This document shows, in pieces, positions 4,570-50,970 of a DNA stretch of 64,000 nucleotides. Made by a program: the position numbers and the translations under genes. The notes beneath the pieces were generated by a model. It made no database searches. It had not been told where the DNA came from and saw only the letters and a list, made by a program, of their open reading frames with translations. Position 1 is the first letter of the stretch. Every line of letters starts with the position of its first letter. The stretch covers positions 2,436,001 through 2,500,000 of the forward strand of contig JAKNDB010000088.1 of NCBI GenBank assembly GCA_024305405.1, given 5' to 3'. Source of the stretch: Dirofilaria immitis. Lineage: Eukaryota; Nematoda; Chromadorea; Rhabditida; Onchocercidae.

Positions 4570-7500
4570 ATGACATTTGAAGATGATGTTATTGTTGGAC
4601 AAGATAGGCTGGAAAGCAATTTCGATTCTCAAGCCTATCTTTGGGTTCTTTTTTTTGAATCTATAACTATAGCAAAAATTTATAAGTTACAGTAGATTTG
4701 AGAGATTTTTGTAGTTTACAATAGCAGTACATGGACTACGATGGATTCAGAAGATAAATATGTATATCTCTTCTGGAAAAGATTATGGAATTTATGGCAG
4801 AAATTTAAAATTTGAAAAATTATGCAGAAATTAAATAAGTGAACTAATAAAATTAATGCTAATTAGAGTTAGAAAATTTAGTATAAGTAAAATTTAATAT
4901 ATATTTCAAAAAAGAAAAACGATGGAATTTTAAATTTATAATATTAAATAATTATTTATACCAATTATAAATTTCTTTTTAATAGCTAATTTAATTAAAT
5001 TGTCGAAAAATTAAAAAATTTTAAATATATTTGAAATGTAAAAAGAAAGCTCAATTAAATTAGTTTAATCGTATTATAAGCTTATTTTAATATAATTAAA
5101 TTATAATTACGATAGCTATGATATTTAATGCTTTTCATCTAATTAAAATGTTAATGAACATTAAGCTTTTTTTTCCTATGTAAATTTTCTTCCTAACATT
5201 CAAAGTTAAATTTTGTATGAAAGAATAATTATTAGAAATTTGAGCTAAACAAATGAAATTATGAAAATATAATGGAATAATTAAGCAATTAAGAAATTTT
5301 TTTATAATATGAATTTAAATACTTCATTTTTTAATTTAATTTCTATACTATTTCAAATTTAGGATTTTTATCGATGTATTGATGATCCGGCAATGCAAAT
5401 GATGATCATGTTATTACCGATCGTTGCTGAACGTATCGATTATTGCGATTCACTTTTAGATTTTGGTGCCGGACCAACCATACATGTTTCAGTTGTTTTT
5501 AGGAATAAAGTAAACAATGTAAGTATATTATCGTTTTCCGGAAAATATATTCATTTTTCCGAATATCATTTCATTATTGGTATTATTTTTAAATCGTTAC
5601 ATGGAAGAAAAGAAAAAGCTAAAAATTCACAATAAAATTTTTATTTTCGTCTTAAAATATCATTGATATCATCATATTGTTTGTTTTTCTTTTTCTTGAT
5701 ATTATCTTTTTTCTCTTTCTTTTTTGTTTGAAATGAAATTTGAAAATATTTTGATTTTTAGTGAGACTTAGGTGAAAAATTTAAGTACAAATAAAAATTC
5801 AACAAAATTCTAAGTGCAATATTTCAATACTTAAAAAAAACAGCGCTGAAATTTTTTTGCTTCTTATTTTTCCTTTTTTTTCATTTATTTTTAATATTTT
5901 TAAAATAAAAATTTTTTCGAAAATCCAAAATTTTAATTAGCTATGATTCAAAATTCTATTTTTAAAAAATTTTGAGACACAATATTGAAATGATAAAAGT
6001 GATTTTAAAGAAAATAAGTTTTTAAATTTTTGTTTTATTTTGTCTTTTGCAATGTCTTTTAAATAGAATTTATCGTAATCTTATGATCTTAACTAGTTAG
6101 CATTAAAATTTAACCTTAAAAATTTGAAACGATAAAAATTATAAGAATTAAATTTTTCCACTTTTGTTTTGGAGTGGGCTATTAATGTGATTGGGTTGAC
6201 AAGAGTTAGGTTTTAGACCTTCTTTTTGTTTCTCATTTTTGGTATTTTTTAGGCAAAATTTTTAGTCGAAATTTTAATTAGTTGAAATAAAATTTTTGGG
6301 AAAAATGGCGCCCAAAAATCTTCACAAAAGTATCATCATAAAAAAGTTCAGAAAATTAAAAAATTTGTTTGCTAATCAATTGAATAAAAATGCAATCCCA
6401 AAAAGAATGAAAAAATTATCTCACTAGAGAAAACAAACAAGCACAGCTTCGTCAATGTATTACTGTAATTATTACTGTAACCAAAGTGTTACCGTAATTG
6501 TTTAAAAAGAAATTTTTCTTCTTTGTTTTTCATAATAAATGAGAGTAATTTATTTCTGTTTCTCTGAAATGTTATATAAAACAAAGAGTTAAAAAACGAA
6601 AACAAAAAGGAAGAGGAAAAAATTAACAATGATCAATGATGCTTTAGATAGGTATTCCTAAATAATTTAACAAAAATAATTTTTATAAATTTAGCAAATG
6701 CCGAACAGAAAATTGCAAAAATTTCAAAAGAAATCACCAACTATGAAAAAATATTTCGAAATATATTTTAAAAAAAATTTAAAATATTCAAGTAGTATTT
6801 GAGTTTTAAGAATTTATCGAATAAATAAATACATTTATTTTGTTTAAAAATTAAATAAATAATTTAAAAAATTCTTACTAAATTGCATAAATTTTTTATT
6901 ATTAATCGATGAATAATTTTGCTAATAAATTTAAAAATTTTTTTGCATTACAAATTAGTTTTAAAAATTTGATATGTTTTGGCTAAAAATTCCTCAATTA
7001 CCTAAAATTATTATAAAAAATGAAAAAAAATAAACAAACGTTCGTCTTTTTTTTAAATTCAAATTCCAAATTTTAATAGAAAAGAAATCTTTCAAAATAA
7101 TATATAAATGAATTCAAACAAATGAATATTTTTATTGTTATGATAAATCAAATAGATTATAAATCTTATTTTGCATATGCTTGTCGTTTTCATATGCTTG
7201 TCGTTTTCATATGCTTGTTGTTTTTAAATAAATATTGCTTAATAGACAAGATAAATATGAAATTGTATTTTGGACATACTTGGCTCTTTTTAGTTTTATT
7301 AGATTAATTTCAAATTCTATTTTGGGCATATTTAATTTTCTAACAAATACTATTTTATAAATGGAACATACTTGGCTCTATTAATTAGTTTATAAATGAG
7401 ATAAATTCCTAATTATATTTTGGAAAATTCGATTTTGAAATACTTAGCTTTTTAACAATTACTGGTTTATAGATGAGATGTGTTTGAAATTAATTATGTT

Positions 7501-9688
7501 ATAGATATATTTGGCTGATTATTTGCCACAAAATCGTAATGAATTATTTCGTTGGATAATTGGCAAGAATTCATTTGATTGGACTCAGTACTTAAAATGA
7601 TAGCTTCGGTGGAAGGTTCTGGTTGGTTACAACTTAAAGAAATTGAACAATTTACTAAATCAAAGGTTTAAATTTTAATATTATTTAAATTCAAATCATT
7701 AATGAATTTGGAAATGATAAAAGGATGAAAAAAATGGGAAGCGAAAATATGCTAATATTAATTAGTAATTGATTATAATAAAATATAACGAATTAATTGG
7801 AAAGAAATATTGTTTTAATTGCAAGAAATTATTATACATATATATAATTTCACGATAAATTATTGTTTTTAATTTACGATATGATAACATTAATTAATTA
7901 ATCAATAACTGATTAAAATGAAATACAATTAATTAATTGATTAATTGAAATGAAATATTATTAATTATAAGAAATTATTAATTTTATGATAAATTGTTAA
8001 TTTAATTTCTTTTTACAGGTTCGTTCAATTTTTCATTGTAATTGTCATACTAAACCATCGATAAAAGCACCGAAAATACTTCAAAATAATTTTGATGTAA
8101 GTTTAAAATAATAAGTAATTAAGTTAATATGCATCTTATCTAAAATCAATAATTAATTTTATTAAAAATTTTAAATTTTATATCAAAATAGGTATTATGA
8201 TATATTCTAAATTATACATTTAATATCCTATATAATTTAAAATGTTTTAATCAATGAGCTAATCGTCATTTAAAGATAAAACTTGAAAATTCTATTTTCA
8301 AGTTTTTCAATTTAAAATTTATTAGATGTTATCGGTGATCGATATTAATATTAATAATTTTGAATTATACATCAAAATAGTAATGGAATATTTTGAACTG
8401 TAAGTAATTCATGATGTTTTAAATTATTAATTGATTAATAATAATTGTTATTTTGATAAATTAATGAATATTCTAAATTAATATTTGATAATATTTAATT
8501 AATTTAATGAAAATTATAATTTTAGTTTTAAATTTTTTGCTTTAAAGTTTATGAAATAATATAAAATTAGGAAATTCATTTCTTATTTTTGAATTTATTC
8601 ATTTTGAATTTTTAAATAATTTCAGATAGTTGTAAGCATTTTTTGCTTGGAATATTGTTCTAATAATGAGATTGAATACAAAGAAGCGATACGAAATGTT
8701 GCAGATCAAGTAAAACCTGGGGTGAAACTTTACAACTTATTTTATTTTTGCTTTTAGAAATTTTAATACAACAAGAACAATGTCAATAGAAATTTAGTAA
8801 ACGGTAATACAATACTCAGATAATTAATTTAAATTGGAATTGCGTAAAAGTTTTGAGTAAAAAAATTTTTAATGTATTGTTTTTAAAATGCATGTGTATA
8901 TTTTATATTATAAAAGGAAAATGTTAGCCAAAACAAATTGATATTTAAATATTTAATTTAAATTAAAATTATATAAAAGTTTTTTAAAAAAATTTTTTTA
9001 ATTTTATATTATATTTAAGCGTACATATATTTTATGTAGAAAAATAGTTACCAAATGAGATTAAATATAAAATGATATTCGAAATAGTTATAAACGTAAT
9101 TTGAAATCAAAATCGAAGTGAAAATAATTAAGAAGAAAACTTTGGAAAAGGAAAGAACCATCAAAGTATTTTTTTTAATTTATTAAACAAAAATATTGCA
9201 TATATATCAATCAAAAATGAATAAATTAATCAAAATTTATTTTTATTTTTTCAAATATTTTGGAATAAAAAAATATTTTTGTAAATTTCTAAAATTGGAC
9301 GAATAATAAGAAATGATTAATCTGAAAATAGAAAATGGATGAATTCAAAATTTTCATTTTCATCAGTAAGCATATTTTTGAATTTTAATTTGAAAATCAA
9401 AATTTATATCCGATTATTTGAAAAAAAAAGTTATTAATTATCATTCTTTTTTTAAATTAATTTATTACTTCAGGTTGGTTTGTTATGGGTGGTATTTTAG
9501 AAGAAACGTGGTGCTCATTTGGTGGACATAAATTTGCGTGTTTATATATTACTGAAAATTTAGTATTTGAATCATTACGTGAAGCAAATCTTTCCGTAGA
9601 TGATAAACAATCGAGAATTTATTATTGTGCAAATGGTATTTTTCTTATTTGTTGTAAAAACAAATTTCAAATTTTGTATAAAATTTAA
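4570..9688 (+). CDS. NNMT/PNMT/TEMT-family N-methyltransferase (ANMT-like), two frame breaks
   Basis: The family transfers a methyl group from S-adenosylmethionine to amines or nicotinamide-like substrates in the cytosol. Exons: 4570-4644, 5363-5518, 7505-7665, 8019-8096, 8626-8721 and 9474-9688, about 260 residues, matching the usual length of about 264. Visible marks are a DSQAYL entry motif (residues 19-24), DPAMQM (33-38), the SAM-binding LLDFGAGPTIH (56-66), IYLADYLPQNR opening exon 3, and the late GWFVMGG...EETW block. The start is the only ATG that gives the family N-terminus, and it lies behind a strong acceptor. Two single-base problems exist. Exon 3 hits TGA at 7598 unless the A4 run at 7594-7597 is read as A5. 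The exon 5/6 junction needs one more G than the G4 run at 8719-8722 supplies. All exon boundaries are otherwise GT-AG. Assembly error or recent inactivation are the choices. The substrate is unknown. Confidence 0.85.
7174..7224. repeat. 17-bp x 3 tandem repeat in intron 2
   Basis: CATATGCTTGTCGTTTT is repeated twice exactly and once with one change, head to tail, within intron 2 of the methyltransferase gene. It is a small recent tandem duplication. Confidence 0.9.
7250..7520. repeat. Degenerate repeats ending in the exon 3 acceptor
   Basis: The phrase (A)TACTTGGCTCTTTTTA recurs with divergence around 7275 and 7370, with a further echo near 7441, at spacing near 70-95 bp. The series ends with the related ATATATTTGGCTGATTATTT that forms the start of exon 3 at 7505. 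The block looks like tandem duplication of the intron-exon boundary followed by decay of the upstream copies. Confidence 0.45.
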
Positions 9689-11418
9689 AAGTTTCTTAAT
9701 TTTTGTCTTTTAAAACGAAATAGACAAATTTTGTTTATTATGTCATTGCTTCACTTTTTAATTAATTAATATATTTTATTGTTTTCATATTAGTATATTA
9801 TTTATTATTTATTATATTATTCATTTGCTTACATTTTTATTTATTTATTTTTTTGTTTGTATGAAAAAAAATGATATCAAAAATATAAGATTAAATATCA
9901 AAAATAAAACGAAAAACAAATGTGATATTCAATAAATGAAATTAATCAATTATTTATTGTTAACATCTTTGATTTGTTATCTTCGAATTGCTATCATTTA
10001 GATATATTTAATTATATTTAAAAAAAAGAATAAAAAATCGGAAATTTTTTCAATGTTAATATTTACACTAAAATTTTTGAATGTAACTAATTAATTTAAT
10101 TTACTTTTTGGCACTTTTAATCGACAACTTTGATAAATTAATTATATTTTAAAATGGATTAGAATAATAAAGGAATTAATTTAAATGTAATTAATTAATT
10201 TGTATATTCATTTCCATTTAATTTATTAATTTCCATTTTTATATTTTTAATTATTTTATGCTCAATGAAAGTTTATTTCATTTTTTCAATTATTTAATCT
10301 TTGTGATAAGTTAGGTTACGCAAATTTTTTTATTCAAAAATATATCAAACGTTTTTGCAATAAACATTTATGATACATAAAATGATTCAATTTCTAATAA
10401 ACCATTAATAATGTGAAAAAAAAATCATCTGAGAACAATTAAAGAAATGCGTATTTCCGTGTTACGTGACATTTTATAAAATCAATTTTCATTTATTACG
10501 TTGACAACAAAATAGTTCAAAATATATTTGATAAGAGAAAGGATTGAAAAGAATTAAATCACCTTAATAAATGCAATTTAAAACATCGATTTTTCTTTCT
10601 ACTACTCTCGTTATTTCTCGTGAAAAAAAGTATATTTTGAGATTCAATAAAGAAACGTAATAACGTAAATTATAAAAATCATTGAGTTGAAAATTCGAGT
10701 ATCATCAAATTAGAAATTCGAGAATCATCAAGTTGAAGATGAAATTTTTTAATAAAATTTAAAATTATCTATCTGATAATATATCATTGAAAACTTTTAA
10801 TATTTGATTAAAACTTCGTTTTGAATTAAAATTTGCCAATAACTGACATTTAATTTAATTGCATATTTACCGTATCCGTTTCCATTGCAAAATCTCACAT
10901 CTATTAATTCTTCCCAATGAACTTTGAATATTTTCTGGAATTCAATCTTTTTCTGAATTATTAGTAGACTAAGCTTCCCTTGATCATAATGAGACAATAT
11001 AGATATAGTATTGCTTCTACCGTATATATTTCAGTAGTTTTTTTTTGAATTTTTCTCGGTAATTTTTGTAACGTCAATCTATTGAAGTCTCATTATTCTA
11101 TCACCAACTTTTTCCTAAATTATCAGTAGATTAAGTTACTTTTCTGTTTACAATGATTACCGTAATTATTCCTACCGTATTCCTTCCAATAGTTCCATAA
11201 CTATTTCGTTAATTTTTTCACTATTAATCAATTGAAATCATAATAATATGTCATCATTCGTTAGTTTCACATATTTGAAATAAATATTGAATGCAATTAA
11301 TTCCAGATAATATCTATTTGATTGAATAAAAAAAATTTGTAATAAAAATTAAAATGCAAAATGATATAACAAATGGAAGAAAAAAATTGATGTTTAAAGT
11401 TTAAATTTCAACAAATAT
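9689..11418. other. Intergenic region between methyltransferase and GPI-anchored-protein genes
   Basis: The flanking genes are convergent, so this stretch holds both 3' ends. An AATAAA at 9931-9936 could serve the plus-strand gene. A short duplication (AATTCGAG.ATCATCAA. twice, about 10691-10735) and a degenerate tandem repeat are present. No further gene is visible. Confidence 0.5.
10850..11260. repeat. Degenerate tandem repeat, unit about 165 bp
   Basis: Two diverged units can be followed: about 10940-11095 and about 11107-11250. Both contain a TCTGAATTATTAGTAGACTAAG-like block, followed 50-60 bp later by CTACCGTAT and TTTCGTTAATTTTT-like blocks. A fragment of a third unit (ACCGTATCCGTTTCC) lies near 10868. 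It could be a decayed transposable element or a minisatellite. The minus-strand open frame at 10797-10997 lies over this repeat and is not treated as a gene. Confidence 0.55.
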
Positions 11419-13151
11419 TTACAAATTCTTGATAATAATTATTGAACAAACAATTGAAATGGAAAATACTGATGGATTTACTGTGATAGCATTGTTCGTT
11501 GATATTTCTGTTTCATTTTGTTTAAATTTCAATCCGATCAATGATTTCATTTCCGCCGGATCGTTTTCTTGGTCAAAATTATCTGGTATTGAATTTAGTG
11601 TCGATTCATATTGAGATTTCGGTAATTCGGTTACAGGAATAAACTAAAATGTTTGCAGTACTTATTTGATTTTTGATTTTGATTTCAAATTAGCAATTTT
11701 ACCCATAATATCAGAATCAAAACTGTTTCAAATTTGTCATCGAGAAATTTTATCAATTTTGTGGAGAAATATTTGATTATTGCGTGAAAATTTTGTACTG
11801 TTTCATATCTATAAACGCTTGATTTTCACACGTTTTTTCGAATAGTTAATCATCTTGATTTTGTGATTAGTCATCTTGATCTTGAAATGTTCGGGAATAA
11901 TTTTTTATTTCTATTAGCAATAATCTGTATCATTTTTAATTTTAATATATTATCAATATCAATTAATTGATATACCAAATTATTGGACAATTGTGGTACG
12001 TTAATTACGTGTGTTGCTGTCGCAGCTGGTTTAACATGCATTGAACCATCTGCGCTTAATTCTGCTTCTAAATTAATATACATTTGACCGGAATTAATTT
12101 CCTCCATATCATTTTTGATACCTTTTGATTCTGCTATTATCATTATTGTTGTTATTATTGTTGGAATTGTTGATACTTCCTAAAAATTTTATTTTTTAAA
12201 ATATTTGAATTTGAAAAGAAATTTTTGAGTTAAAAAAGAAAAAGATTTTTCACAAATGAATAATTTGATTAAAAGTTTTTAGATTATTTTTTTAAAGTTA
12301 TCAATAATATTATCAAATAATTTTAATTGTTTAATTAAAAATTATAATTTATATTTTTGATTAAATGAAAAATGAAAAATCAGAAATCAAAAAATAAAAA
12401 TGAAAACTAATTAGATGTTAATTAAGTTAAATTATGTATAATATAATATATTCAATGAATTGTTGGGTTGCAATTAAATTTAGAAAATTTATGTTATAAC
12501 TTAATTTCATTCGCAAAAATTATTATCAACTATTTTTTAGATTTTAAAACTTCCCTTCCTGAGTTTTAAATTTTAAATTCAATTTCAATTATTCAAAATC
12601 AATTTATTATTATCAGAAATTATCCTATCATTCAATATTTTAAGTGATAATTTTGATATATTTATTGGATTATATGAATTTAACTAATAATAATAGTAAC
12701 ATTATACGATTACTATTAGATATTAAAAATTTGCCTGAATTTTTATCGAAGCGAAATTCAACGAAATTTTAAATCAACGAAAAATTAATTTTCAAAAATT
12801 AATATATTTATTCATATTATACAGTATTTTTTTAGCCGAAATAAAATATAAAGCAAATGAAGTGATTGTCAGAAAAATCCATTAATAATTAAATAATTAA
12901 TTTCATTTCAAAATTTAAAATTTTCAAATGTATTTTAAATTTTCAAATTTATTCAATGAATTTTTATATAAAGTTTAAATAAAATTAATATAAATTAAAT
13001 AATTAAATTAATTATTGAAAATTTCTTAGCAATTTTTAATTTCATATTAAATAATAATAATAATAATCATTACTTTTTTCTTTTTATCATTAACATTATA
13101 ATTTGTTTTTGAATTTTTCCTTTTTATCGCAACAAAATTTAATATCATTTC

Positions 13152-13187
<36 letters not shown>

Positions 13188-14167
13188 AAAAAATCGGAAA
13201 AAGATCAATAAGTTGGTTGAAATAAAAAAAAAAGTAAAACATATCAAAAATAAAGCTATACTTATCAATCATATCAAAAGAAAAAAAAAGAAAATTAAAG
13301 TAAAAACGTAGCCTAACATTTTCACCAAAACTGGTTATTATTAAAAGGACATATCTGATAATAATAAAAAAAAACAAAGTTCCAGTAAAATATTCATTCA
13401 TTTTTGTTTTTGTTTTTTTCCTTTAATTTTATTTTATATAAAAATTTCTAACTTTTTTTACTGAAAAAGTATATTGGAATTATTGATTAATTGAGAATAA
13501 TTTGTTGCAATAAAAATTTTAAACTAAAAATTAGAAAAATTAATTTAATCTAAAAAAAAATAAAGAAAGGAAAAAGATTTTTTGAGTTCACTTTTTCCCA
13601 ATTTAAAATGTTTCGGAAATAAGAAAAAAACGGAAGGAAAGTAAAAGTAATTATATAAGTAAATGAAAAACTTTTTAAGGAAGAATGGCTCCAGAAAAAA
13701 AGTTTCAGAGAAAAGAAAAAGCAATTTTTTTGTAAACACTAAACTTATCAAATTGATAAGTTAATTTAATAAAAATATAATGCTGAAAAGAAGAACGAAA
13801 TAAATAAGAATTATTAATTATTCTAATATTTTGTCATAAATGACAATGAAACTAATGTTTTCTATTAAATTCGAAAATAAACGATTAAATGATAAAAAGA
13901 TACGATATGATTTGGAACAATTTAACAAAAAAACAGACGAAAATGTAAACAGAAAGTATAGTAAAACGAAATATAACAATTTAAGAACGATCATTCAATG
14001 AATCATTCGAAAAATGAATTTGAAATTTTAGAAAAAAATACCTCAGTATTGTTGATTTTTGTTATTGAATCATTTGACCAAAATGAAAATTGATTGCTAT
14101 TAGTCAATCCTCCAGATAATATATTAATGGATAGCAAAACAAAGAGCAAAAATGCTAAATTTGTCAT
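11419..14167 (-). CDS. Small secreted, probably GPI-anchored protein, family unknown
   Basis: Three exons read from high to low coordinates: 14167-14042, 12179-about 11976, and 11643-11419, all joined in phase 0, about 184 residues. Residues 1-20 form a classic signal peptide (MTNLAFLLFVLLSINILSGG). The body is hydrophilic, with DMEEINSGQ and LSADGSMHVKPAATATHV in exon 2 and an acidic DNFDQENDPAEM stretch in exon 3. The last 15 or so residues are hydrophobic and end in a short Lys-Asn-Leu tail, the pattern of a GPI-attachment signal. There are no cysteines in the mature body. An AAG acceptor ends at 14178, ten bases before the start. The exon 2 donor (GTATAT at 11975) is a judgement: without it the frame runs to TGA at 11871, giving a shorter protein without the tail. 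I do not recognise the family. Surface or secreted function is inferred from topology alone. Confidence 0.65.
13155..13184. repeat. (AT)15 dinucleotide microsatellite
   Basis: Fifteen uninterrupted AT units lie within intron 1 of the minus-strand secreted-protein gene. Confidence 0.95.
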
Positions 14168-16679
14168 AATTATTTAGCTTAAACGGTAGTTTACAGTATA
14201 GTATGGATTTAAATTACAGTACCGAATAATAACTATATGAATTATTACCTCAACAAGACGCAAATGGGGAAAATTTGTTATTAGGACTCATAAAATAAAA
14301 ATGGGATGGGAAAATTGGAAAATAATGAAAAAGGGAAAAAACATCGTTCAGTCAATCACTGCCAATATTATCAATTTTAAAAATCGTAAACCAGTTCGAG
14401 ACTAAAGAAGAACAACTTAAAATTTAGCATTTTGCGAATAATAAGTATACGAAGAATTGTGCAATCTCAATTTTTTGATGCATATTCATAAGGTTTAAAA
14501 CGAAATTTCATCGTTTACTAGTATAATAATTACGGTACAGAGGAAATAATATTACAGTAATGAAGAAAATATGACATACTGTAGAGGAGTGGACGAACAA
14601 GTTTGCCATTCAGTTATCGGAAGTTCCACCAGAAAAAGTCAAAAACTTTTACATCATTCCTAAAAAAATCATTCTAAAGATAAAAATGATCATTCTTTTG
14701 CAATAAATTGACTTTTACTAAATTTAAATATATTTTTGATAAAAGCATTTGATAAATATTATAATGACATACATTATATGATTAGGAAATTTGATAAATA
14801 TTGATAATAATTTATTATATGAATAAATAATTTTTAGAAAAATCGTAGAAAAATAAATATATTATATGAAGAATTGAAAAAAAGAATTATAATTCATACT
14901 TATCTTTTATCCATTACAAAACAAAATTTTTCTATCTCCATACAAACAAATTTAATGATTAATTGATTAGAAATTCACAGTAATTAACTTTTTTACTTAT
15001 AATTTTTTTAACATATCAGTATTTGAATTAGTGAAATTTTTTTTGCTGAAAAAATTATTGGTATTATTTAAACTAGATTTTTCTGTTTGTTTTCTATCAT
15101 TATTTAATTACTGAATAAAATATATGATATGATTAAGTTCCAGGAATATTTTTTATATTGTATCACTGATCAAAAGATCAAAGATTATGTGATGTTAAGT
15201 TTTTTGCCGATTCAGTTTTTTATAAAAATTTCTCAAATTGAACAAAATATCAATCTTTTTTTTGTTCTTATTCAATCACGATTCCACTATTCTTAATTTA
15301 ACGCAATAAAATATTTCTCGAAATATTATGATGATGTATGACACGTGACTTGCATTTAATGTATGATTTTGAAATGAATTTATTTTGAAAAATCAAGTCA
15401 TAAGTTTCATGAAAAAAAAATCATAAATTTGTACCTATGATCTTATTAGAGTAAACATCATTGAACCATCAATGATTAAAGAGTATCTCGAGAGTACAGC
15501 AAAGATGTGATAAATTCAAGTATTCGTGTATCAGTATCAGTTGCGATTACGTTACCTTGTGATGCGAATTAGATGTATTAAAAGTTAGTTACTACCTAGT
15601 TGAGCAATAAATCAAGGTATTTGCTCTTCTTCCCAATTAATTTTAAATTTTCGCTTCTTAATTCTTAACCTTTTAATAAAACTTGTCAATTATCAACAAA
15701 ATTTTCTTGTTCATATTATTCACTTTGTCGCAAATAACACACCTAACTTATTGCTTAAATTTATCATCAGGTAAAAATGTACATTTACCAATAATTTTTA
15801 AGTGAAAAAAAACAATGAAGGAAAATATAAGGAAGATCAAAAACTGAGATGAAAATTAAAATTTTGATAGATACTGACAAAATCTATATCATTTGCATAT
15901 TTTATTGGATATTAATTTGATAAGAGATAAGTATCAATAAATTATCAAGCTAATAAAACGCAAAAAATTATTTAACAATTCACGTATATATCAGTAGAAC
16001 GCATCCAGTAAAAATTATCATCGAGAAAATTATGTGTAATGTTTTGTCTTAGCCAATTAAATATTAGGATACATGCAAGAAGTATGCAATCATTACTCCA
16101 TATATGCTAACACATAAATAAATGTAAAAATTAAATAAAATTAATAAATTGAAATTTATGTAGAAAAAATTTTACGTAAAATCTCACGTGGAATCAATAA
16201 AACACACGGAAATTGTAATGTCTTAATTAAAAAAATAAGGAGAAATTTGAAAAGAAAAAAAAGTAAATAAAAAAAGAGAGAGAAAGAAAGAAATTTTAAT
16301 AATAAGAACAATTTATTTATAAATAAAAGGAAATTTAAAATTTTCAATTTTTCAATATTTAAATGAAATGACGAAATACCTTATAATATTTTAATTATAT
16401 AAAAATCAGAAAGAAAAAGAAGTAAATTAAATTAAAATTTAAAATTAAAACCATTTTTTATTAAATAAAATGAATTTGAAATTTACCAAATTTTTAGGAA
16501 TTCAAAATAAATTTAAAAAATTTTCCAAATTTTTGTCAGAATTTCTTGGGCAAAATTTTTTTGGGTAAAAGATTTCTCGTGAAGAAAAAGAAAAATATTT
16601 GTTTTCGTCAAGACAATATTATTTGAAAATATTTTCCCAAATCAGGCAATCTTATAAAGTTTATTTATTTGTTTTTAAA
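14168..16679. other. Upstream region of the secreted-protein gene, otherwise empty
   Basis: It contains the presumed promoter of the minus-strand gene. TACTGTA/TACAGTA and ACCGTA words recur between 14190 and 14590 (for example TTACAGTATAG, ACAGTACCG, ACGGTACAG, TACTGTAG), resembling fragments of a palindromic repeat. A CACGTG E-box lies at 15342-15347. No coding exon is seen. Confidence 0.45.
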
Positions 16680-16840
16680 TGTTACTTGCGACATCGCCAC
16701 TCGTCAATCTTAAATGTCTCTTGCGACATTTGTACTCCTCTAATCTTAAATGTTTTTTTATAACGCCCTCATTCTTCAATCCTAAATGTCTTATTGCAAA
16801 TGCCATATGTGCGACATCTCCGCCTCGTACAATATCACTA
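16680..16840. repeat. Minisatellite, unit about 40-50 bp
   Basis: Three to four imperfect units share AATCTTAAATGTCTCTTGCG / GCGACATnTnCnCCTC. The array is relatively GC-rich for this window. On the minus strand it stays open for 71 codons and would encode a repeated HL(R/G)L(K/E) theme, but no splice or start context supports a gene. The open frame is most simply a consequence of a repeat unit lacking stops. Confidence 0.6.
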
Positions 16841-16969
16841 CTGATATAATCATTATCATCCCTTTGTAATGATAAAGCGATTAAATCCACCGATGAATTC
16901 CAATTATCTTTTTTTCTTTATTTCATCATAAACGGAGAAATATAGGCAGATTTTAATATATTCAATTAC

Positions 16970-18150
16970 ATGTATGTACACACATATATAAAATACACAT
17001 TTACATATATACACCTATACAAACATACATATAAATACACACGCATATATACTCATAAATATACACGCAAACACATACACACACATATATACGACATGCA
17101 CGCACAATCGTACATTTACCTCACATACACATATTACATACAAATAACTTACATATTCACATTCATACATCTACAATACATAAATATCCATACATTCGCA
17201 TACATACACATAATGTAATTATACACTACTCATCCAACATTCACACACATTTACACATTATACATATACATATTTATATATACTTATATATATACGTACA
17301 TCTACATATATATATATATCCATATATACATATACATATATCCACATACACACACATACATACGCACCCAATATTCACACATATACAGATATTAATATTA
17401 CACATTCACATACAGATATACATACACACGCAATAAACATACATCCACGCATTCACACACACATACACACATACACACATACACGCATACACAAGAACAC
17501 ATACACATATCCACACGAACACATACACACATATATAAATAGTATAGATGCACACACGCATGTACCCACATATTCCACACATGTGCATACACGGTATGCA
17601 TCCAGCACGCATTTACTCACATCCACGCATACACATATTGTAAGCATATATTCACAAATACAGTACCATACAATATATACACAGCCATGCATCTACACCT
17701 AAGCATGCACCTATTTTTACGATATCCATACAGTACATGGGGTACGCATACAGTGTGCATATACTCACACATATGATGCACGTGTAATGCGCATACATTC
17801 ACAAGTATACAGTACAATATAATACATACACCTATCATTAAAACACCATGCTATACACCCTACACCTACGCACGCACCCACACGCATTCGCACACAAATA
17901 CACGTAGAATAAAAACACACTTGTAGATATAATAAGTGTAGTAGGATACATCCATATCCCACATACATTCACATCTACAAATGCTTATAGAGTACACGTT
18001 ACATTTATAGATATGGTACATATAATAAGCATACACCCATATTCCCACACACACCAACACAAACACTTGCACAGACATACATGTACACGCACATATACAA
18101 TACACATATATTTGTTCATATACAAACATTTACGCATATGCATGCAACAC
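16970..18150. repeat. 1.2-kb CA/TA-rich degenerate low-complexity island
   Basis: The plus strand is almost entirely A, C and T in the form (ACATATACAC)n-like purine-pyrimidine alternation, with very little G until about 17580. The second half acquires GCATAC and GTGCAT words and a few longer repeated phrases (ATACAGTACA, TATAGAGTACACG). The edges are abrupt on both sides. It lies 0.35 kb upstream of the next gene. Overlapping minus-strand open frames rich in Cys, Val, Tyr and Met are composition artefacts. Confidence 0.9.
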
Positions 18151-18480
18151 GTAAACACACTTCCGTGAGATTTCGATTGTAATCGGTTGTTGTGCCAACG
18201 AGTAGTTGTTTTGCTTATTTCCCGCATTCTACCAATTTTATCGTAAAATTTGGCTTCTCTATGATTGTTTGTCTAATTTGTTTTTCATATAATATTATTC
18301 ATTTCATTATTTATTATCATTTGTTTATCTTTCCTTATTCAATTAATTATTTATATATTTATTTAGTTACTTATTAACATTATATCATATATTATTATTC
18401 ATAATTTATATGTAAATAATTATTTATTCTATTTTATACAAATTGTTAAATTGGAATATGTTTAATTTAAATTTTTTAAT

Positions 18481-18498
18481 TTTAGATTAAGGATTACA
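18481..18498 (+). promoter_or_regulatory. Probable spliced-leader acceptor
   Basis: TTTTAG (AG at 18484-18485) lies 13 nt before the ATG at 18499 after a T-rich stretch, and no upstream exon is seen. This is the typical geometry of a trans-splice acceptor in nematodes. Confidence 0.5.
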
Positions 18499-21400
18499 AT
18501 GTATGGTATCTATTATGTAGGCATTGTTTTGGAAATAGCCAATAATCGAATTAAAGTATTAAGACGAACTAAAATTTATCAATTTAATTGTGAAATACCA
18601 ACAAATATTGTACCAGGTAGTTGGATCAATTTTTCGGTAAGTATATTTATTTGAAATAAAATTATCATTCATCTAAAATTATTATTATTATTATTATTTA
18701 TTCATTCAAGAAAGTGAAAAATTGGAATACCAAAAAGTACTAAAAAAAAATTACAAACAGGTGGAATTATTAAAAAAAAAAAAGATTTATTATTTGAAAA
18801 TATAATTCTTCTTTTCAAAATATTTTAGAAGTAATTTATTTTTCATATTTTAGCAACATCTCATGTTACAATTAAACTTTTTTGAATAATCTTGACTATC
18901 GATTAATTTCAATTTCTTTCTTTTTCAATTGAAATTCAAACATTTTAGCTACAATTTTTTCCTGTTTGTTAAGATTTTTTTAAATAAATAAATAAAACAT
19001 TTATAACAAATAATCTGAACATTTCTTTTATTTAATTGTTATTAATGAAGAACGATATAATTTGAAATGCTATGTATCATTTCGTATTTTTGATTAGTTT
19101 TTTAACGTCCGTTCATTTCTAGAATATTTTATATTTCTAATATTAAATTATATTATCAAATGAAGTTAATTTCTGGAGCAATTTAAATGAAATATTATAT
19201 CGTTTATCTATAACAAAGTATTACATTGTTTTGAAGATATAAGATTAAATGTAAAGAAAAAATTTAATATAAGTTCATATATGGAATAAATATTATAATT
19301 TACATGTGAAGCAAAGGAACTGATTTAATTAAGATTTAATTTAAATATGAGTAAATAATATATTTTTTAATTTAAAAAATATAGAAAAACAGCCTTCATT
19401 TTTCGAATTTATATTAGTATTATTTTTTTTCAGTTTGATGATGATTCGATGATACCTAGCATTGAGTCTTGTTCGCCAGTTCTTCCAACTAAAATTATTA
19501 AATTACGTGATAGTGATGGAAATTCGACAAGTAACCGAATTTTGGTATGTTTTTCAATTTCTATTATAGATAGTTATTTAATATATGCGGAACTTCTAAT
19601 ATAGTTATTTTTTCCTAAAAAGATTTTTAGAATTATCTAATGTTTCAGTGTTAAATTTTTTTTTTCATATTCAAACAATCGCAGCTACTCCTTGTCGATC
19701 AGATTTAGATAATAATTTTGAGCAATATGTTTGGTCACCACATTTTGAGGTATCATTTTTCTTTCTGTAATATTGTTGGAAATTTATATGATTTATTTTG
19801 AGATAATTTTGTTGAACTTTATTTTGTTAACCTTTTGATTATTGGTTCTCTAATATTTATTTTTTGAATATGCTATGGTTCTGATAACTTTTATAAGTGA
19901 AGCGACAAAAAAAAGTACTTATTTTCGTTATTAATTCCCATAAAACATTTAACTGTGGAAAAATGCAACTATAAACTATTATTTTTATTGTAAATATTTG
20001 GATATTTAAAATAATACCAAATCATATATTTGAATCTTTTGTAGTTTCCAAAGAAAAGATACGACCTCTCAATAAGTATTAATCATTTGTAGTGGATTCT
20101 GGACAGCAGTGGAATATTTAACGATCAATATGTTATGCCAGACGTTGTTTATGTAACGTGGATCGAATTATTAAATGAACCATGTACACTGAATAGTAAT
20201 GTATTGATGAAAGTAACTGAAATTGTTCGGCCAGCATATGATCAACTTCCCATTTATGATGCAGTTAGTTTTTTCAAAATTGGTCGGTTATTTCTGTCCT
20301 TTTTTAAAACACAAAACAAAACTTATAACTTGTTTTTCTTATTGCTTTTATATTTTCGTCCGTAGTTTTGAATATGAAGGCAGTTTTGTCCAGGTTCAGA
20401 TTCTCACTGATATGCATTATTTTATTACGTTTAACACAATCTGATGTAAAATGATCAGTGCAGGTAAGAATAAGTTTCTTCTTCAGACGTAGGTTGATAA
20501 GCTAAAATAAAGACAATCTTTCGTTCACTTATAATATTACTTGGAACATAAAATTAGTGCTTCGGAAGTATAAAATATGATTCTTTGAACTTTATCAATT
20601 CTTCAAAAGAGAATTATTTGTAGAAACCACAAACGAGCGGGAAATATTTAAAAAATAGAATGATTTTTTGTGATGTAATATATTTTTATATTCCAGCATA
20701 TTATTCTTTTTTGCATAAGAACATCAGTGAGCTTATTATAATTATTAGCTTTTCATTATTTTTTCAGCCATGGATTGGATCAGAAATACTAGCTGATGCG
20801 GAATTGTTGTCAGTTCATTGTTTGGTATATTTTTTCATTGTCTTTTTTTTACAAAATTTTAAATTATTAAATATCATTGCAATTAATTTATCACTTTAGA
20901 TTGTTTTGTGCTATTTGCTATGTTAGCTAACTTGAATTTAATTTTTTTATTTTTTTAGCAAAATCGGCCTAAAATAAAATCAACCCTGCTACCGTGTATT
21001 CAGGATTAGTAATTTGGCGTGATGTGGAATGTAAACGAAGTAATTCCTTAAAATATTAGTCATATGAACATTATATGTTATTACTTAAAAATTTGCTGCT
21101 GCTGGAATACCGTAAATCTTTTTGTAATTTTAATTATTTTGTTGGTTGTTGGAACATTCGAGCATTAACAAAATTCGAAGTCTAACAAGAATAATTGGCT
21201 CAGCTAAAAGAATCCAAACTTTTAATATTTCAACAGTAACATTGAAATATCAGTAATTAGTTGCAATGTCGATATTCGTTGTCTTTTCTCTTTTCATTTT
21301 ATGTCTTGAACAAAGATTTTATTTGTTTTTTTTATTGCTTTAGTTATTCAAGTTTAAAACACAAATTTACCGAAACCAAATGTCTGAGAAAAGGATCATA

Positions 21401-22824
21401 CATCCCCCAATTTTTAGCTCTATCTCATTTATTCCTTTGAATCACTTTTTTGTTTTATTTAATATAATTGATTTCATTACAGAGCAAGTTGTCTTGTGGT
21501 CGATAGCAACCGGAATTGTTTACTTTCGTCATCAGCAATGTCAAAATATTGCTATAGGTGCTTGGCTTGATTTTGTTGTTCGAAGCGGGTTGGTTTTTAT
21601 TTTATATGTATTTATCCGATTCAATCATTTAATAATTTTATAGGATGAATTATTCATTATGTTCATTATTTTTTCAAAGAGTTTGACGAAGTTCAATGTC
21701 ATAAATTTCACTTCCTAATTTATTTCATTATGATATTTGCTTTATTTCATTATGATAATTGCGTACAAAAATCCATTCTTTTTTCAACTTAAAGGATAGT
21801 AAAGTGAGAGTTTTGGCGGTTAAACAAATAAGAAAATTTCGAGGATCACTGATATAAGATATGAAAGTTTTAGTTTTACAGGCGAGATGGTGTATTGGAA
21901 GCTCATAAATTGAAATATTCAAAGAGTCAAATGGTACCAACAAGAGAGGTAAAGGGTAAAGCTCAGGTAATTATTATTTCTGTTTTATAAAGGAAGATCA
22001 AAATAGTGGCATGAGATTGACTCAATTCACTTGAATTTATTTGATTGTAATATTTGTATTTATTTGAATAAGTTGCTACTATCATGTTTCAAATAATATA
22101 TATAGACGTTTTGTTCCTATTAGTCTTTTTAGGAAATGGAAAACTTTTATTTCTATTAATGTTATATTTATATGATATTCCTAAAAGTTTCAGGTATGTG
22201 AAAAAATGAAAATGCCAGAGAATTTGCCTGAAAAAAATTTCGTTTGGGTAAGTGATGTTGTTGGGAAAGTTTGGGTGGATGTCGAGGAATTTAAAAAGTC
22301 AGTGATGGATCGATGGAATGAATTAGCTGGAAATACCGTACGTGTTTGGCTTTCGTGTGACCAGTTTGATTTTACGATACACTGGAAATTTCATTCCATC
22401 GTCGACCCCAATGAATATGTTAGTATAATTTATATGATTTTTATGTGTTTACATTTGTTTATTTAATTTCTGAATTATATACATATACATAGCATAATTT
22501 GTATCAAATCCTTACTCTCAAAGGATATAAAGTAGATTTATTTCAAATTTTGTAATGGATGCTGTAGGATATTGAAAGGCATAGATAAAAATTTTTAGTA
22601 GTTGAATCAGAATTAAAAATGATGAGTTAATAAGGATCAAACATTATAATCCTAGTTATCACTGTATATTAAAATTTATTTGCTTTGAAAAAAAAGAGTT
22701 AATAGAAATCAAACTTTGTAATTCTATCTAGTACAGTATCATTAAAAACTTATATGCTTTTCAGGTAGATACTGAAGAAAACATTGAAAATATTGAACGT
22801 TTCGCAGATCTGGTTATACTATAA
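18499..22824 (+). CDS. Ten-exon protein of unknown function with a repeated G-x-V...G-(S/A)-W-(I/L)-x-F motif
   Basis: Exons: 18499-18636, 19434-19530 (or to 19544), 19685-19749, 20093-20263, 20768-20824, 20959-21039, 21483-21588, 21882-21966 (or to 21948), 22194-22418 and 22765-22824, about 360 residues. Nearly all junctions keep phase with canonical GT-AG sites. Exon 6 needs one extra A in the A4-T-A4 run at 20971-20979 to connect the frame before it to the clearly coding frame after it (GLVIWRDVECKR). No signal peptide or membrane span is seen. The N-terminal block (GIVLEI ... VPGSWINF, residues about 8-45) resembles a second block in exons 6-7 (GLVIWRD ... IAIGAWLDF), suggesting an internally duplicated domain, possibly a small beta-barrel. 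The C-terminus is rich in Trp, Val and Asp (exon 9). I do not recognise the family and assign no function. Confidence 0.7.
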
Positions 22825-24544
22825 TATAGAAATTTTCTTACTTTTGCTAAATTGTTGTAAGTTTGAGAAAAATCTTTAAGTATTTTCTAAAAATGTTTAA
22901 AGATTTTATGAATCATTATAGAATTCTACAACTTTTACATATTGATGTCTCTTGTCTCCTTTTTTTATTTTATTTTATTTATCAATATTTGTTTTCCCAA
23001 ACTTTTTATTTTACATTTTTGTTTTTATTAATTTTTACAATTATTAGAATAAGATCTCATATCACATCAGTGACGCCAGTGATTTAATCTTCCCTGATAA
23101 AATAATAACCATTGTGATACTGTAATTTTTCCGTAGTTTTTATCTGGTAATTGATCGGAAAGTTCATTTGAGTCTATCGCAACTGTTCCATGCTCAGTTT
23201 TTTATTTTGTAGGGATGATTTGTGCACGTGAATTTGAATCTCAATGTATACATATATAAGTTCATTCATAGATATTCCCAATAATGTCATCTTTATTTAA
23301 TTTTTTTTCACTACGAACGATACGATTTTAATTCGGATATTAATATTTGATTAGAGTTTAACAATTTGATTCATTTCATCGATCCACTTAATAGATGTTC
23401 GTGAATTTTTGTAGAAAGAAAGATTTATCAATTCTTAATTAACACATAATCTTATCAGAAAGGAAGAATTCCAAGAAACCGAATGATTCCTTTTTCATAC
23501 ATTGTTTTAATTGAATTTTTATTTCATTTCCTTTTTTGTTTTGTTCAATTTATAATATATTTGTACATTAAGAGAAAATGAATCATAACTTTTGATTCGT
23601 AATGACTTTTCATTTCGATTGAATTGATTGCAAGCATGAATTATAGGATAATCATTTTAACAAATTGATTAGTCAAAATGAATGATTTTAGAATGACTAT
23701 TTATCTTATCACATTATTTTCTTTTCAAAAGAATTGATGATTTCTTGTCATATTAGCTTGATCTTTATATTAAACAAGAAATGTACATGGGTAATTTTAA
23801 TAATTAGTAATTTTAGTCAATTAATACGAAATATATTGGATTGATTGATTGAATTATACATTATCCTTTGTGGAATTTTAATTCCCAAAAATATCGCAGT
23901 AAGGGAAATGAGAAGACACGGCCGTAATTTGACCACATAGGTATATTTCACATTATTTTAACTAATTTTAAGATTGTCATATCAAAATCTGAGTATTTTT
24001 AGACAGTTATATCTCAGGTTATTTGAAGTTATCTTTGGGATTATCGTGGCCAATATTTAAAATTTTGGTTGTGCCATATATGTGGGGTATATAGCTGTTA
24101 AGTACAATTTGTTTCACTGAAATGCGTCCTGAACTACGGTAGAGTCCCAAATTTGGGTATTAATGTTTCAGTTTTCGTGGTAGCTATGGGAAGTTTATGG
24201 GACTGGGGTTTTTGTGCACGTGAGTGTATTTGCTGTGATTGAGGAATACGCTTGCGCCACGTGAATAAATACATGTATTATATATATGTGCGCTAATATA
24301 TATATTTTATGTGTCTTTTTCTTTTTTTTTTGCTGAGATTTTTGAGATATTAATTTCTTCCTGAATTCTGTTCTCCAAACGCATAAATATTTTTGATTCT
24401 CTACGTAGAATAAGTAATATCATTTTTACGTATGCAATCTAGGACGTGACTTCTATTATATAACATTAGAACTTAGTGATTATGGTCGATATTTAATTTA
24501 TGCTATTTTGCAGGGTATTATTCAGTAGGCTCAAAATATTAAAA
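22825..24544. other. Intergenic region and RPL10A promoter region
   Basis: The first kilobase is featureless AT-rich DNA. From about 24060 to 24300 the sequence is less AT-rich (GTGGGGTATATAGC, GGGACTGGGG) and carries two CACGTG boxes (listed separately). This is plausible core promoter for the ribosomal-protein gene. AG acceptors at 24513 and 24525 precede the start codon by 31 and 19 nt and suit spliced-leader addition. Confidence 0.45.
24217..24263. promoter_or_regulatory. Two CACGTG E-boxes upstream of RPL10A
   Basis: CACGTG occurs at 24217-24222 and 24258-24263, 41 bp apart and about 290-330 bp upstream of the RPL10A start. Another copy is at 23225-23230. Such palindromes bind bHLH factors of the Myc/Max type, which in many animals control ribosomal genes. 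Use here is inferred. Confidence 0.4.
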
Positions 24545-26274
24545 ATGAGTAAGATTCCACGTGATACATTATTCGACTGCGTCAATGAAGTGTTGAAAGC
24601 ATCAAAGGAAAAGAAGCGGAAATTCCGTGAAACAGTCGAATTGCAAATAGCATTAAAGAATTATGATCCACAAAAGATAAACGTTTTAGTGGATCCGTAA
24701 GGTATTATCAACAAACTATCATCAGCAACAACTAATTCTTCGTACATAGTGCCTACTCATTCCATTCATGTGCAACACTTGCTAGGAATTGAGCAGGAAG
24801 TCGTTTGATAATTTAAACGGCGAAGACTTTAACCCAGAGTCTTGAAATAATGGGGAGGATTTCATGTATTACACTTTTTATTTGAAATCCGTTAAATTAA
24901 TCGTTAATAACGAAAATCGATAAACAACAGTAAGCATTATGTTTGCATTTTGCTAACAAACAGAGAACAAGAGAAGAATTATGAATTAGTATGAAAAAAA
25001 AATAACCTGAATTATTTGGATTAAAATAAGGAAAAATTTTCAATTTCTATTTCATTTGTTCAATTTCTATTTTATTTGATAACGAGTGATTGGAATAAAG
25101 TATAATAATAAATGGATAAAATAGAATTAAGGGAATAGGAAGATATGTTTGAGTAAGGTATTATTTATTTATAATTTAATTTTTATCTCATTTATTATAT
25201 TTTAAATTTCGCTGTTTAATTCAGATTGATTAATTTAGCCTAATATAGTTGTCAGTTAGCATGTTTAAATATATGTCCAACTAGGAAACTTCATTTAGGT
25301 TCGAAATGAAATAAAAAAATAGAATTCCTCATGTTTTAAAAATTTAAATTGGCAGGGTTTTCTACTATTAATTTTTATTCAGTTCTTATTTATAAATATT
25401 TATAGCTTCATGGATTATTTCTACAGAATTTTGATTGTCATTAATATTTCTAAATTCCTATGATTCAGGTTGAAAAATATCCCAAGACCAAACATGAAAG
25501 TTTGTATATTGGGCGATCAGCAACATTGTGATGAAGCTAATGCAAATAGCATACCATGCATGAACGCCGATGAGTTGAAAAAATTGAATAAAAACAAAAA
25601 CTTATTAAGAAGTTGGCAAAGGTTTGTGCATTTTTTTATTTCCCTTTTCGTTCATTTTAGTTGATGTTAGATTTTCCACTGATTAGTATTCTATATCAGA
25701 CAAGCAAATATGGAACCGTTTATTGTTTATTCTCGAAAAAAAGAAAAGATCATTGATTATTCGTCATTACATAGAAAAACATTTTGGAAAGATGTTTTTG
25801 CATTTTTAAGGGATATGATGCGTTTTTGGCTTCGGAGGCTTTGATTAAACAAATCCCGCGTATACTTGGACCAGGATTAAATAAAGCCGGTAAATTTCCT
25901 ACTGTTGTTGCTCATTCCGAAACGCTGGTAGCTAAAATTGAAGAGATCCGTTCAACGATCAAATTTCAAATGAAAAAGGTAGAGTGTTTTTTTTTGTATT
26001 ATTCGCAACGATCAGTTAATGTTATCAAAATTTTAAAAATTTAATTTCAAGCATCGACGGATATTTTTTCTTGACATTTACCAAAGTAAGATTTTAATTA
26101 CAGGTATTATGCTTGTCGGTAGCAATTGGACACGTTGGAATGACACCGGAAGAACTTGTTTCCAATATCGCACTTTCCATCAATTTTCTTGTGTCGTTAT
26201 TGAAGAAGAATTGGCAGAATGTGAGGTCATTACATATAAAGAGTACAATGGGGCCACCTCAACGGCTCTATTGA
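24545..26274 (+). CDS. RPL10A: 60S ribosomal protein L10a (uL1)
   Basis: This protein forms the L1 stalk of the large ribosomal subunit, which moves deacylated tRNA out of the E site. Exons: 24545-24701, 25469-25621, 25811-25978 and 26104-26274. Allowing for two missing bases the product is 216 residues, the usual length. Family landmarks are [19 protein letters not shown] in exon 1, [19 protein letters not shown] in exon 2, [19 protein letters not shown] and [11 protein letters not shown] in exon 3, and [20 protein letters not shown] plus [15 protein letters not shown] in exon 4. Two single-base gaps disturb the frame. The A4 run at 24672-24675 must be A5 to read DKRFSGSVR, and the A5 run at 25596-25600 must be A6 to read the lysine-rich KKLAK end of exon 2. 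Every splice phase then agrees. Because the protein is essential and otherwise perfectly conserved in pattern and introns, sequence error is far likelier than a pseudogene. A processed copy is excluded by the introns. Confidence 0.97.
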
Positions 26275-44940: not shown

Positions 44941-47900
44941 TTAATCAGATTCCTCCATAGCATCATAGGTATACAATGATTGTGGTGCAGGAGAAATTTT
45001 GAAAGGATTCCTTTCAGGCAATAATGTTGGTAGTGGACTAGGCTCTGGTATATTAGACATTAAGCCTTGGCCAATCCATTTAAATACTTGCTTACATTTA
45101 GCCTTTAATAATTCAATTCGCTCTAGCGGTGAAATTTCTGATACCATCGGATCAGCCAAATTATCACGTTCAACATTCATTTCATAATTAATACGAGCTT
45201 GAATTATTTCATCTATAATATGCGGTTGCTCGGCGACATTTAAATGTAAGCTGAAATTATGAAATTTAATTAAAAATCACGACGAAAAAGAAGACGAAAA
45301 TAAATTAAATTTAAATTTGAAATAAAAATTAGGAATTATAAATAATAATTTTTAAGCCAAATACAATCAAATAATCAAAGATTATTTGCTATATTTTTTT
45401 GCTTTCGATTTCATAATCTTTTCAAAAATTTTAATAAAATATTATAACTTTTAATTATTTTATTTAAAATTTAAATATTTTATTTACAAAAAACATTTTC
45501 TTGCAAATTAATTTGTAAAAATTTTTTTCCGTTAAATTTGAATTAATTTAAACACAAAAATAAATAGAACTTTTGATAATATTTTCTTTTTCTTTTTCAC
45601 ATTCAAATAATTTTATTTATAATTTTTAATTATTTTAAATAATTTCTAAAATATTATTAAAAGCTTATTAATTTTGCGAAAAAATTAATCATACTGATAT
45701 GTATCAGGAAATACTGCAACAAGTCTTGCTATTGTGCAAGCTTCAAATTTCGGAAAACCCCATCGTATCGCAAAACGCAAAAATTGAAGCGTATTAATTT
45801 CGCATGGTGGTCGTGTTGCGTTACATTGCTAAAAATTTCATTAAATAAATTTTATCTTCAATTTTTTTCTATAAATAATTTTTTATTGTGATAGATGATA
45901 AATTATAAGACTAATAAAGAAAATAATAGATAAGGAAAATTACACGTGTTCGATGTTTTGTTTCCTGATAATATAACTTAATTAGAAACTTAAAATAAAC
46001 AAACTAGATGATAAGCCAATATTAATATTAGGAATTGCTAATGAAAGTTAATATATTGATAAAAATTGTCATTCAACTAAATAAATTTCATTTTGTAATC
46101 AATAACCGATAAATAATATTTAATGGTCATTATTTGATATCCAATTAAATCAGTTTCATTTTATAATCATTAACTGATAAATAATATTTAATAATCAATA
46201 ACAAATATGCATGAAAGAAAGCATTAATTCTGATTAATTTCATACTACGTAATTGATAAAGAATATTCAATAATGAAATAAAATTTGATATATTCGTAGG
46301 TAAGAAGAGTTTCGAACAATAAATAATTAAGTAATTAAGTAAACAAGTGTTGTTTAGATTAAAAAAAGTTTCAAATAACAAGTGCTTGAGGAATTAAGTT
46401 AATAAATAAATAATCGTTAACAAATTATTTAATGTTATTATTTAACAATTAACAAATTATTTAATGAAAAAAGTAAGGTTGATATATTAATGAATGAAAA
46501 TAATTCCACGATAATAAATAATTAGGTAAATAGGCACTATTTAATTAAGACAAAATAGGTGTAATTGATTAATTAATTAATTAATCGAATGACTTTTATA
46601 ACCTTTTGAAAGATACGACAACAATCTTCATCGTGCATTTGCAATAATTCTCGATACATTAATGGTTTGAGCAAATTCAAGCAAGCAATAAATTGATGAT
46701 AATTAGCAAAATCACTAGAATTTAAATTGCCACCATGATATTTTACCTGACAAATGCCAGTAAATGCAAATGATAATACCTGCAAAAATTATAGCAAATT
46801 TAATATTTAATATTTAACAAATTTCTCTTTACTAATTATTTAAAACTTATAATAAATTTAAATGCTAAAATTAGAATTGATTAAAATCATTAATTAAAAT
46901 TAAAATCGATTATTCCGAATGTTTCTTTAATTTTCTGGTTCAAATTTTCCAAATTAAATCATTTCAAATCATTGATTAAAATTGTGACTGATCATTTGAA
47001 ATTTTTATTGATTTCTTAGTGAATTTCAATTATCCAAAAAAAAATTTGCGAACAATTAACTTTACGATTTGCTTAATAAATTACATAACTTAAATTAAAT
47101 TATTATACAACAAATTATGTAATTTATTCGACGAAAAATTCTTTTTACTGATAATTTTTAATAAATTTACAAATTTTCAAATGTTATTCTTCAATAATTT
47201 GAAATAAAATGAAACAAAAAAATTTTTTATCGGAAACTTATCAATCTTCTCCCTCTCGCTCTCCCTCTCTTTCTCTCTCTCTCTGTCTCTCTCTATCTCT
47301 ATCATCCTCTTTCTCTCGTTTTTTAAATTACCTGTTCGATTGCATCTGATTCAAATTCTAATAAGTCTATCGAATTTTCATCAGGATTATTATCAATATA
47401 ATCATGAAAATATCGACATGTTATATATAAGCAATATTTATCGTACGATACTATTTCATCCGAACATCGAATATAAAACATTCTATAAATATATTTGTAA
47501 TTTTTATCAATTAACAGAAATTTATTACCGGTTTGCTGATAAAAATACACCTTAGAATTTAATTCCAAATTTATTAAATTAATATTTTATTATATTTAGC
47601 ATTATTATCAAAAATTTTTTACTTAATTCCGAATTTATCAAAACAACATTTTACTATATTTGAAATATCTATCAAAAATTTCTTACTTTTCTTTCAAATT
47701 TATCAAATTAATGCTTTACTATAATTGCAGTTACTATCAAAAATTTTTACTTATTTTTTTAAGTTTATCAAATTAATATTTTGTTGTATTTGAAATTATT
47801 ATCAAAAGTTTTCTTCTTCTTAGCAGAAAAATAGGAAAATAAGAAACTTTTTTTTCTATTTAGGTAATGTAATTTGTATAAGTAATTAAGATATAAAAAT

Positions 47901-50900: not shown

Positions 50901-50970
50901 TTTACCCCAGTCTATAAGGTGCACCAAGATCAATCTCTAGATCGCTAAATGGAGTAGTAATTAATGACAT
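44941..50970 (-). CDS. BTB/POZ-like protein, possibly MATH-BTB (BATH-type)
   Basis: Eight exons on the minus strand: 50970-50906, 50370-50185, 49866-49745, 48736-48468, 47550-47332, 46779-46603, 45828-45695 and 45250-44941, 493 residues, with every splice phase agreeing. Residues about 232-302 fit a BTB/POZ core: YCLYITCRYFHDY in the place of the usual H..VL..(R/C)S.YF, then DLLEFESDAIEQVLSFAFTG like the (L)..V....F..(L)L.(Y/F)(I/L)YTG signature. The region after it is helical and cysteine-bearing, as in BACK-like extensions. Around residues 79-125 alternating strands (IEWTLHIRKEQRDFSIELV, GEFRVQFRAQ) could be a MATH-like beta domain. BTB proteins usually act as cullin-3 substrate adaptors, and that role is inferred only. 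The C-terminus is Pro-rich and acidic. The start ATG directly follows an ACAG acceptor (50971-50972), so either a spliced leader is added there or an upstream exon exists. Donor 48467 (GTTTAT) was chosen because it alone keeps phase. Confidence 0.7.
46075..46200. repeat. Partial tandem duplication in intron 6
   Basis: Two diverged copies of TTTCATTTTnTAATCAnTAACnGATAAATAATATTTAATnnTCA lie about 65-75 bp apart inside an intron of the BTB-like gene. Confidence 0.55.
47246..47318. repeat. CT-rich tract next to exon 5 donor
   Basis: About 73 bp are almost purely C and T on the plus strand, mainly CTCT with CCCTCT variants. It starts 14 bp beyond the exon 5 donor of the minus-strand BTB-like gene, so the pre-mRNA carries a GA-rich tract at the start of intron 5. 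Confidence 0.9.
47556..47820. repeat. Four diverged 64-bp tandem units ending at the exon 5 acceptor
   Basis: The repeated phrase is AATTTATCAAATTAATATTT, then TACTATATTTG, then ATTATCAAAAATTTTTTACTT. Units begin near 47556, 47627, 47691 and 47757. The array fills the 3' end of intron 4 directly against exon 5 (start 47550) of the minus-strand gene. Confidence 0.7.
48804..48888. repeat. GA-rich tract upstream of exon 4
   Basis: About 85 bp are almost purely A and G on the plus strand (GAGAGATTAGAGAGAG, GAAGGAGGG, GGGAGAGATAAC). In the minus-strand transcript it is a CU-rich tract about 70-150 nt upstream of the exon 4 acceptor. Confidence 0.9.
50515..50880. repeat. Dispersed repeat, copy 1 (intron 1 of BTB-like gene)
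   Basis: This is a block of about 370 bp matching 60985-61352 in the same orientation. Shared phrases in the same order are ATAATTTCAGTnATAAAGGnAAT, TTATTATTAAAA, AATTAACAATAAA, AAAAGA.ATTAAATGATnAAAT, TTTATACATTT and ACTATCAAATAATTT-like. Both copies lie in introns of minus-strand genes. No coding capacity or obvious terminal inverted repeats are seen. Confidence 0.75.

Follow-up and report, generated by a model that had tools for sequence, protein, structure and literature searches.

The stretch of Dirofilaria immitis DNA analysed here (the window: 64,000 nucleotides of contig JAKNDB010000088.1, assembly GCA_024305405.1) contains five short homopolymer runs at which the reading frames of three genes appear to be interrupted, and the question is whether these frames are broken in the worm or only in its written sequence. 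The preliminary description of the window had proposed that one base is missing at each run as a result of homopolymer under-calling, and had named -1 ribosomal slippage or insertion of A into the mRNA as a biological alternative. When the sequence is inspected, the five runs are located exactly where they had been reported. Frame changes and introns were reported separately by a purpose-written spliced, frameshift-aware aligner, which is unable to put a loss at a splice junction. The genes and sites are listed in Table 1.

Table 1. Genes and short-run sites in the window, with the evidence for each
Feature	Position	Strand	Evidence
NNMT/PNMT-like methyltransferase gene, part spanned by the PNMT alignment	5450..9604	+	Pfam, PNMT alignment
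A4 run with one-base loss, methyltransferase exon 7505-7665	7594..7597	+	Spliced alignment to PNMT; PNMT colinearity
G4 run at the 3' end of methyltransferase exon 8626-8721; splice phase short by one base at this junction	8719..8722	+	Residue register
DUF7038 gene, ten exons, D. immitis orthologue P0121	18499..22821	+	Spliced alignment
A4-T-A4 run with one-base loss, DUF7038 gene exon 20959-21039	20971..20979	+	Sole discrepancy with P0121
RPL10A (uL1) gene, exons 24545-24701, 25469-25621, 25811-25978 and 26104-26271, plus stop	24545..26274	+	Homologue alignment
A4 run with one-base loss, RPL10A exon 1	24672..24675	+	P0003, P0004, P0005, P0010
A5 run with one-base loss, RPL10A exon 2	25596..25600	+	P0003, P0004, P0005, P0010
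Second-half gene, eight exons, conserved in filariae, without one-base loss	44944..50970	-	Five filarial homologues

The gene for ribosomal protein RPL10A was aligned to the proteins of four nematodes, Ascaris, Toxocara, Onchocerca and Steinernema (P0003, P0004, P0005 and P0010). Against all four, the spliced alignment contains exactly two one-base losses, placed at 24671-24672 and 25596-25597, within or touching the A4 and A5 runs. Three of the four references give the same four-exon structure, while with the Onchocerca protein the alignment is pushed into spurious additional exons and one codon gap at insertions in that protein. In the latter, a model from Onchocerca flexuosa, two short stretches of 12 and 5 residues are inserted at exon junctions and are probably gene-model errors. 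Apart from its two breaks, the coding sequence is conserved and agrees with Ascaris at 193 of 213 codons.

The broken frames in the assembly could also be those of true pseudogenes whose intact counterparts lie elsewhere in the genome. A check for a second intact RPL10A locus, which had been suggested with the original observation, was run as a protein search of 65 contigs (86.69 Mb); no second locus was found among them, and all four matches of the protein query lie inside the window. The published assembly comprises 110 contigs and 87.90 Mb (PMC9179477), so that a copy could reside on one of the 45 contigs outside the search; we assume that the difference consists of small contigs left out. 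The conservation of the RPL10A coding sequence speaks against decay, as do breaks of the same kind in actin, chaperonin and proteasome genes described below, and we regard pseudogenes with other, intact copies as very improbable. RPL10A is an essential gene. Being essential, broken twice and the sole locus found, it points to a fault in the assembly and not in the worm, in agreement with the earlier opinion that its real inactivation is unlikely.

One L1-family match on another contig (C10) was considered as an RPL10A paralogue and rejected, as it is of the bacterial type (rplA-like). It is a frame-broken bacterial-type ribosomal protein L1, situated at about 1377-1890 of locus L003 (G000:C10:4704072-4707260) in a nematode contig, and is likely a remnant of Wolbachia DNA in the nuclear genome. 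Broken GroEL-like fragments are present on the same contig (L015, G000:C10:9536462-9537217 and flanks); these are probably another, putative, Wolbachia-derived insertion.

The DUF7038 gene can be compared with a protein of the same species. Its ten exons agree with the D. immitis protein P0121 at all 357 aligned codons, and the alignment contains one frame break only, a one-base loss at 20971-20972. P0121 originates from another D. immitis record, which has a contig of 15.1 Mb, as against 12.5 Mb for the largest contig seen for this genome; in that record the region of the A4-T-A4 site is encoded in one frame. This same-species comparison covers one of the five sites. The exon in the window scores 26.5 bits, slightly below the Pfam cut-off of 27 for DUF7038. 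P0121 carries the label 'Amino acid permease' and several of its filarial relatives bear other, unrelated names, all of which look like misannotation. The degenerate CA/TA-rich tandem repeat at 16980-17535, upstream of this gene, belongs to a strongly strand-skewed stretch. An Rfam search of the window gave no match at gathering scores.

In the methyltransferase gene, one exon exceeds the cut-off of the Pfam family NNMT_PNMT_TEMT. The spliced alignment to PNMT has 50 of 176 codons identical, and PNMT is colinear across both sites once these are written as X. The first loss is placed at 7592-7593, directly before the A4 run. For the second, the aligner gives 9489-9490, just past the next acceptor, because it has no way to set a loss at the junction itself; the residue register locates the deficit between PG and WFVMGG, which corresponds to the G4 run or the junction after 8721. 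The proposal of a one-base break at each site is confirmed for RPL10A and the DUF7038 gene; in the methyltransferase gene the spliced alignment bears it out for the A4 site, and the residue register for the G4 site.

Whether such breaks are peculiar to the window was addressed with a sample of TCP1-ring chaperonin genes, proteasome subunits and one actin gene (L081) from the same genome. Nine of 12 TCP1-family places, 11 of 12 proteasome places and one actin match were taken, and EF-Tu matches were left out; three of 24 genes, with identities below 48% or less than 150 codons, were excluded. Identities to the human reference proteins are approximate. In 19 genes (6,851 codons), a single base is lost 18 times and gained twice, and two bases are lost once, with penalties of 20 and 26 alike; the loosest penalty gives 20 one-base losses, three one-base gains, two two-base losses and two two-base gains. 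When a loss is called well supported if at least five of 12 codons are identical on both sides, 17 of the 21 events in the former count are well-supported one-base losses. Both +1 events have just five of 12 identical codons per side; together with the -2 event they fit poorly to a simple loss of one base.

Inclusion of the DUF7038 gene and of one gene from the second half brings the count to 19 one-base losses in 21 genes and 7,670 codons, or about 0.8 per kb. The losses are spread over ten contigs and 12 of the 21 genes have at least one; among these are actin and six of the eight CCT subunits, and CCT2 and CCT7 contain three each. A local unpolished patch or a degenerate region, considered as an explanation for the window, was rejected in view of the ten contigs.

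The losses are bound to homopolymers. Events were attributed to the longest run no more than about four bases away, and all 17 well-supported losses are at runs of four or more (P = 2e-12, for a null of 0.205, the share of coding positions at such runs); this assignment biases the lengths somewhat upward, for which the null allows. By inferred true length, the runs called one base short number 0 of 260 at four, 8 of 78 at five, 8 of 28 at six, 2 of 5 at seven and 1 of 1 at eight. The share called short is therefore zero at a length of four or less, 10% at five, 29% at six and 40% at seven. The longest runs by the 17 strong events are composed of A (12) or T (5), and as written they are four to six bases long in 16 cases and seven in one.

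The restriction of these strong events to A and T runs is what would be seen if transcriptional slippage or insertional RNA editing put A or T into the mRNA, a base being added to the transcript at a run. Transcriptional slippage normally needs runs longer than four to seven bases, and the runs observed here are shorter than that requirement. The G4 site in the window is at odds with insertion of A, the frame of the A4-T-A4 region is intact in the other D. immitis record, and the rate of loss tracks run length as a sequencing error would. Addition of bases to the mRNA is thus extremely improbable.

Programmed -1 ribosomal frameshifting would leave the DNA truly short and let ribosomes slip back at the runs to make full-length protein. 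A slip of this kind at each run would restore the conserved frame of RPL10A and of the DUF7038 gene, with one base read twice as in known programmed frameshifting. Here, however, no slippery heptamer is present: the in-frame motif X XXY YYZ (Y being A or T and Z not G, within a few codons) is found near none of the 19 losses, compared with 160 of 7,670 background codons, a frequency at which fewer than one would be expected. Many genes would have to be shifted, actin, proteasome and chaperonin genes among them, and some repeatedly, with three efficient shifts per gene in both CCT2 and CCT7; in addition, P0121 has the A4-T-A4 region in one frame. We give frameshifting practically no credence. 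For neither form of the biological alternative put forward in the preliminary description was support found. Two findings count against each of ribosomal slippage, mRNA insertion and pseudogenes: losses on ten contigs whose frequency depends on run length, and a D. immitis protein that is intact. It is likewise hardly to be believed that the worm truly carries one or more of the short runs as an allele, tolerated through compensation at the run by the mRNA or the ribosome.

It had also been noted that the genes in the second half of the window need no added bases. Exons for a homologue search in this half were chosen with a coding-potential scan, and one of the four genes, at 44944-50970, shows no loss of a single base when aligned to five filarial homologues. 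One of these, P0134, forces a +2 event where the P0134 model is without residues. At the genome rate about 1.1 losses would be expected in this gene, and zero has a probability of 0.32. The five losses in the three first-half genes (746 aligned codons, chosen post hoc) have P = 0.04 at the same rate, which is slightly high and counts somewhat against a pure artefact. The absence of losses therefore holds for the gene compared, while the contrast between the halves is not shown as real and requires no explanation.

The source of the sequence is in keeping with the remaining reading, homopolymer under-calling. The window almost surely derives from the D. immitis assembly of 2022 (N50 3687191, 110 contigs), for which a single MinION R9.4.1 flow cell, Guppy 2.3.5, Flye in nano-raw mode and Pilon fed with raw reads were used (PMC9179477). 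The excerpted methods of that paper make no mention of short reads, and describe correction by the assembly's own raw reads alone. Base-calling of R9.4.1 data would have shortened some homopolymers of about five bases upward by one base, and this systematic error would persist because the correction consists only of re-mapping the same raw reads. According to another report, assemblies made from R9.4.1 data only contain homopolymer consensus indels that lead to frameshifts in gene calling, and they are improved by short-read polishing (PMC9262707). Our case resembles those assemblies in having frames broken by homopolymer indels and differs in that they are of microbial genomes, while the present one is of an AT-rich nematode. 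Reports of frameshifts in this assembly were also sought in the literature, and none of the papers listed contains the accession term JAKNDB.

Losses bound to runs, a rate that depends on run length, a spread over the genome and a long-read assembly without short-read polishing are found together. As the losses are nearly all in one direction, are confined to runs on ten contigs and become more common with run length, the under-calling first proposed for the window is borne out. We are close to certain that the five frame breaks are consensus errors of nanopore sequencing caused by homopolymer under-calling. In the worm, each of the five physical runs would then have one base more, and the missing bases are almost certainly an ordinary artefact rather than unusual biology.

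For D. immitis, this means that gene models, and claims of gene loss or of pseudogenes, are unreliable when made from this assembly alone, because about 0.8 frames are broken per kb of coding sequence and 12 of 21 tested genes are hit. The run-length pattern is a fast way to spot windows of this kind.
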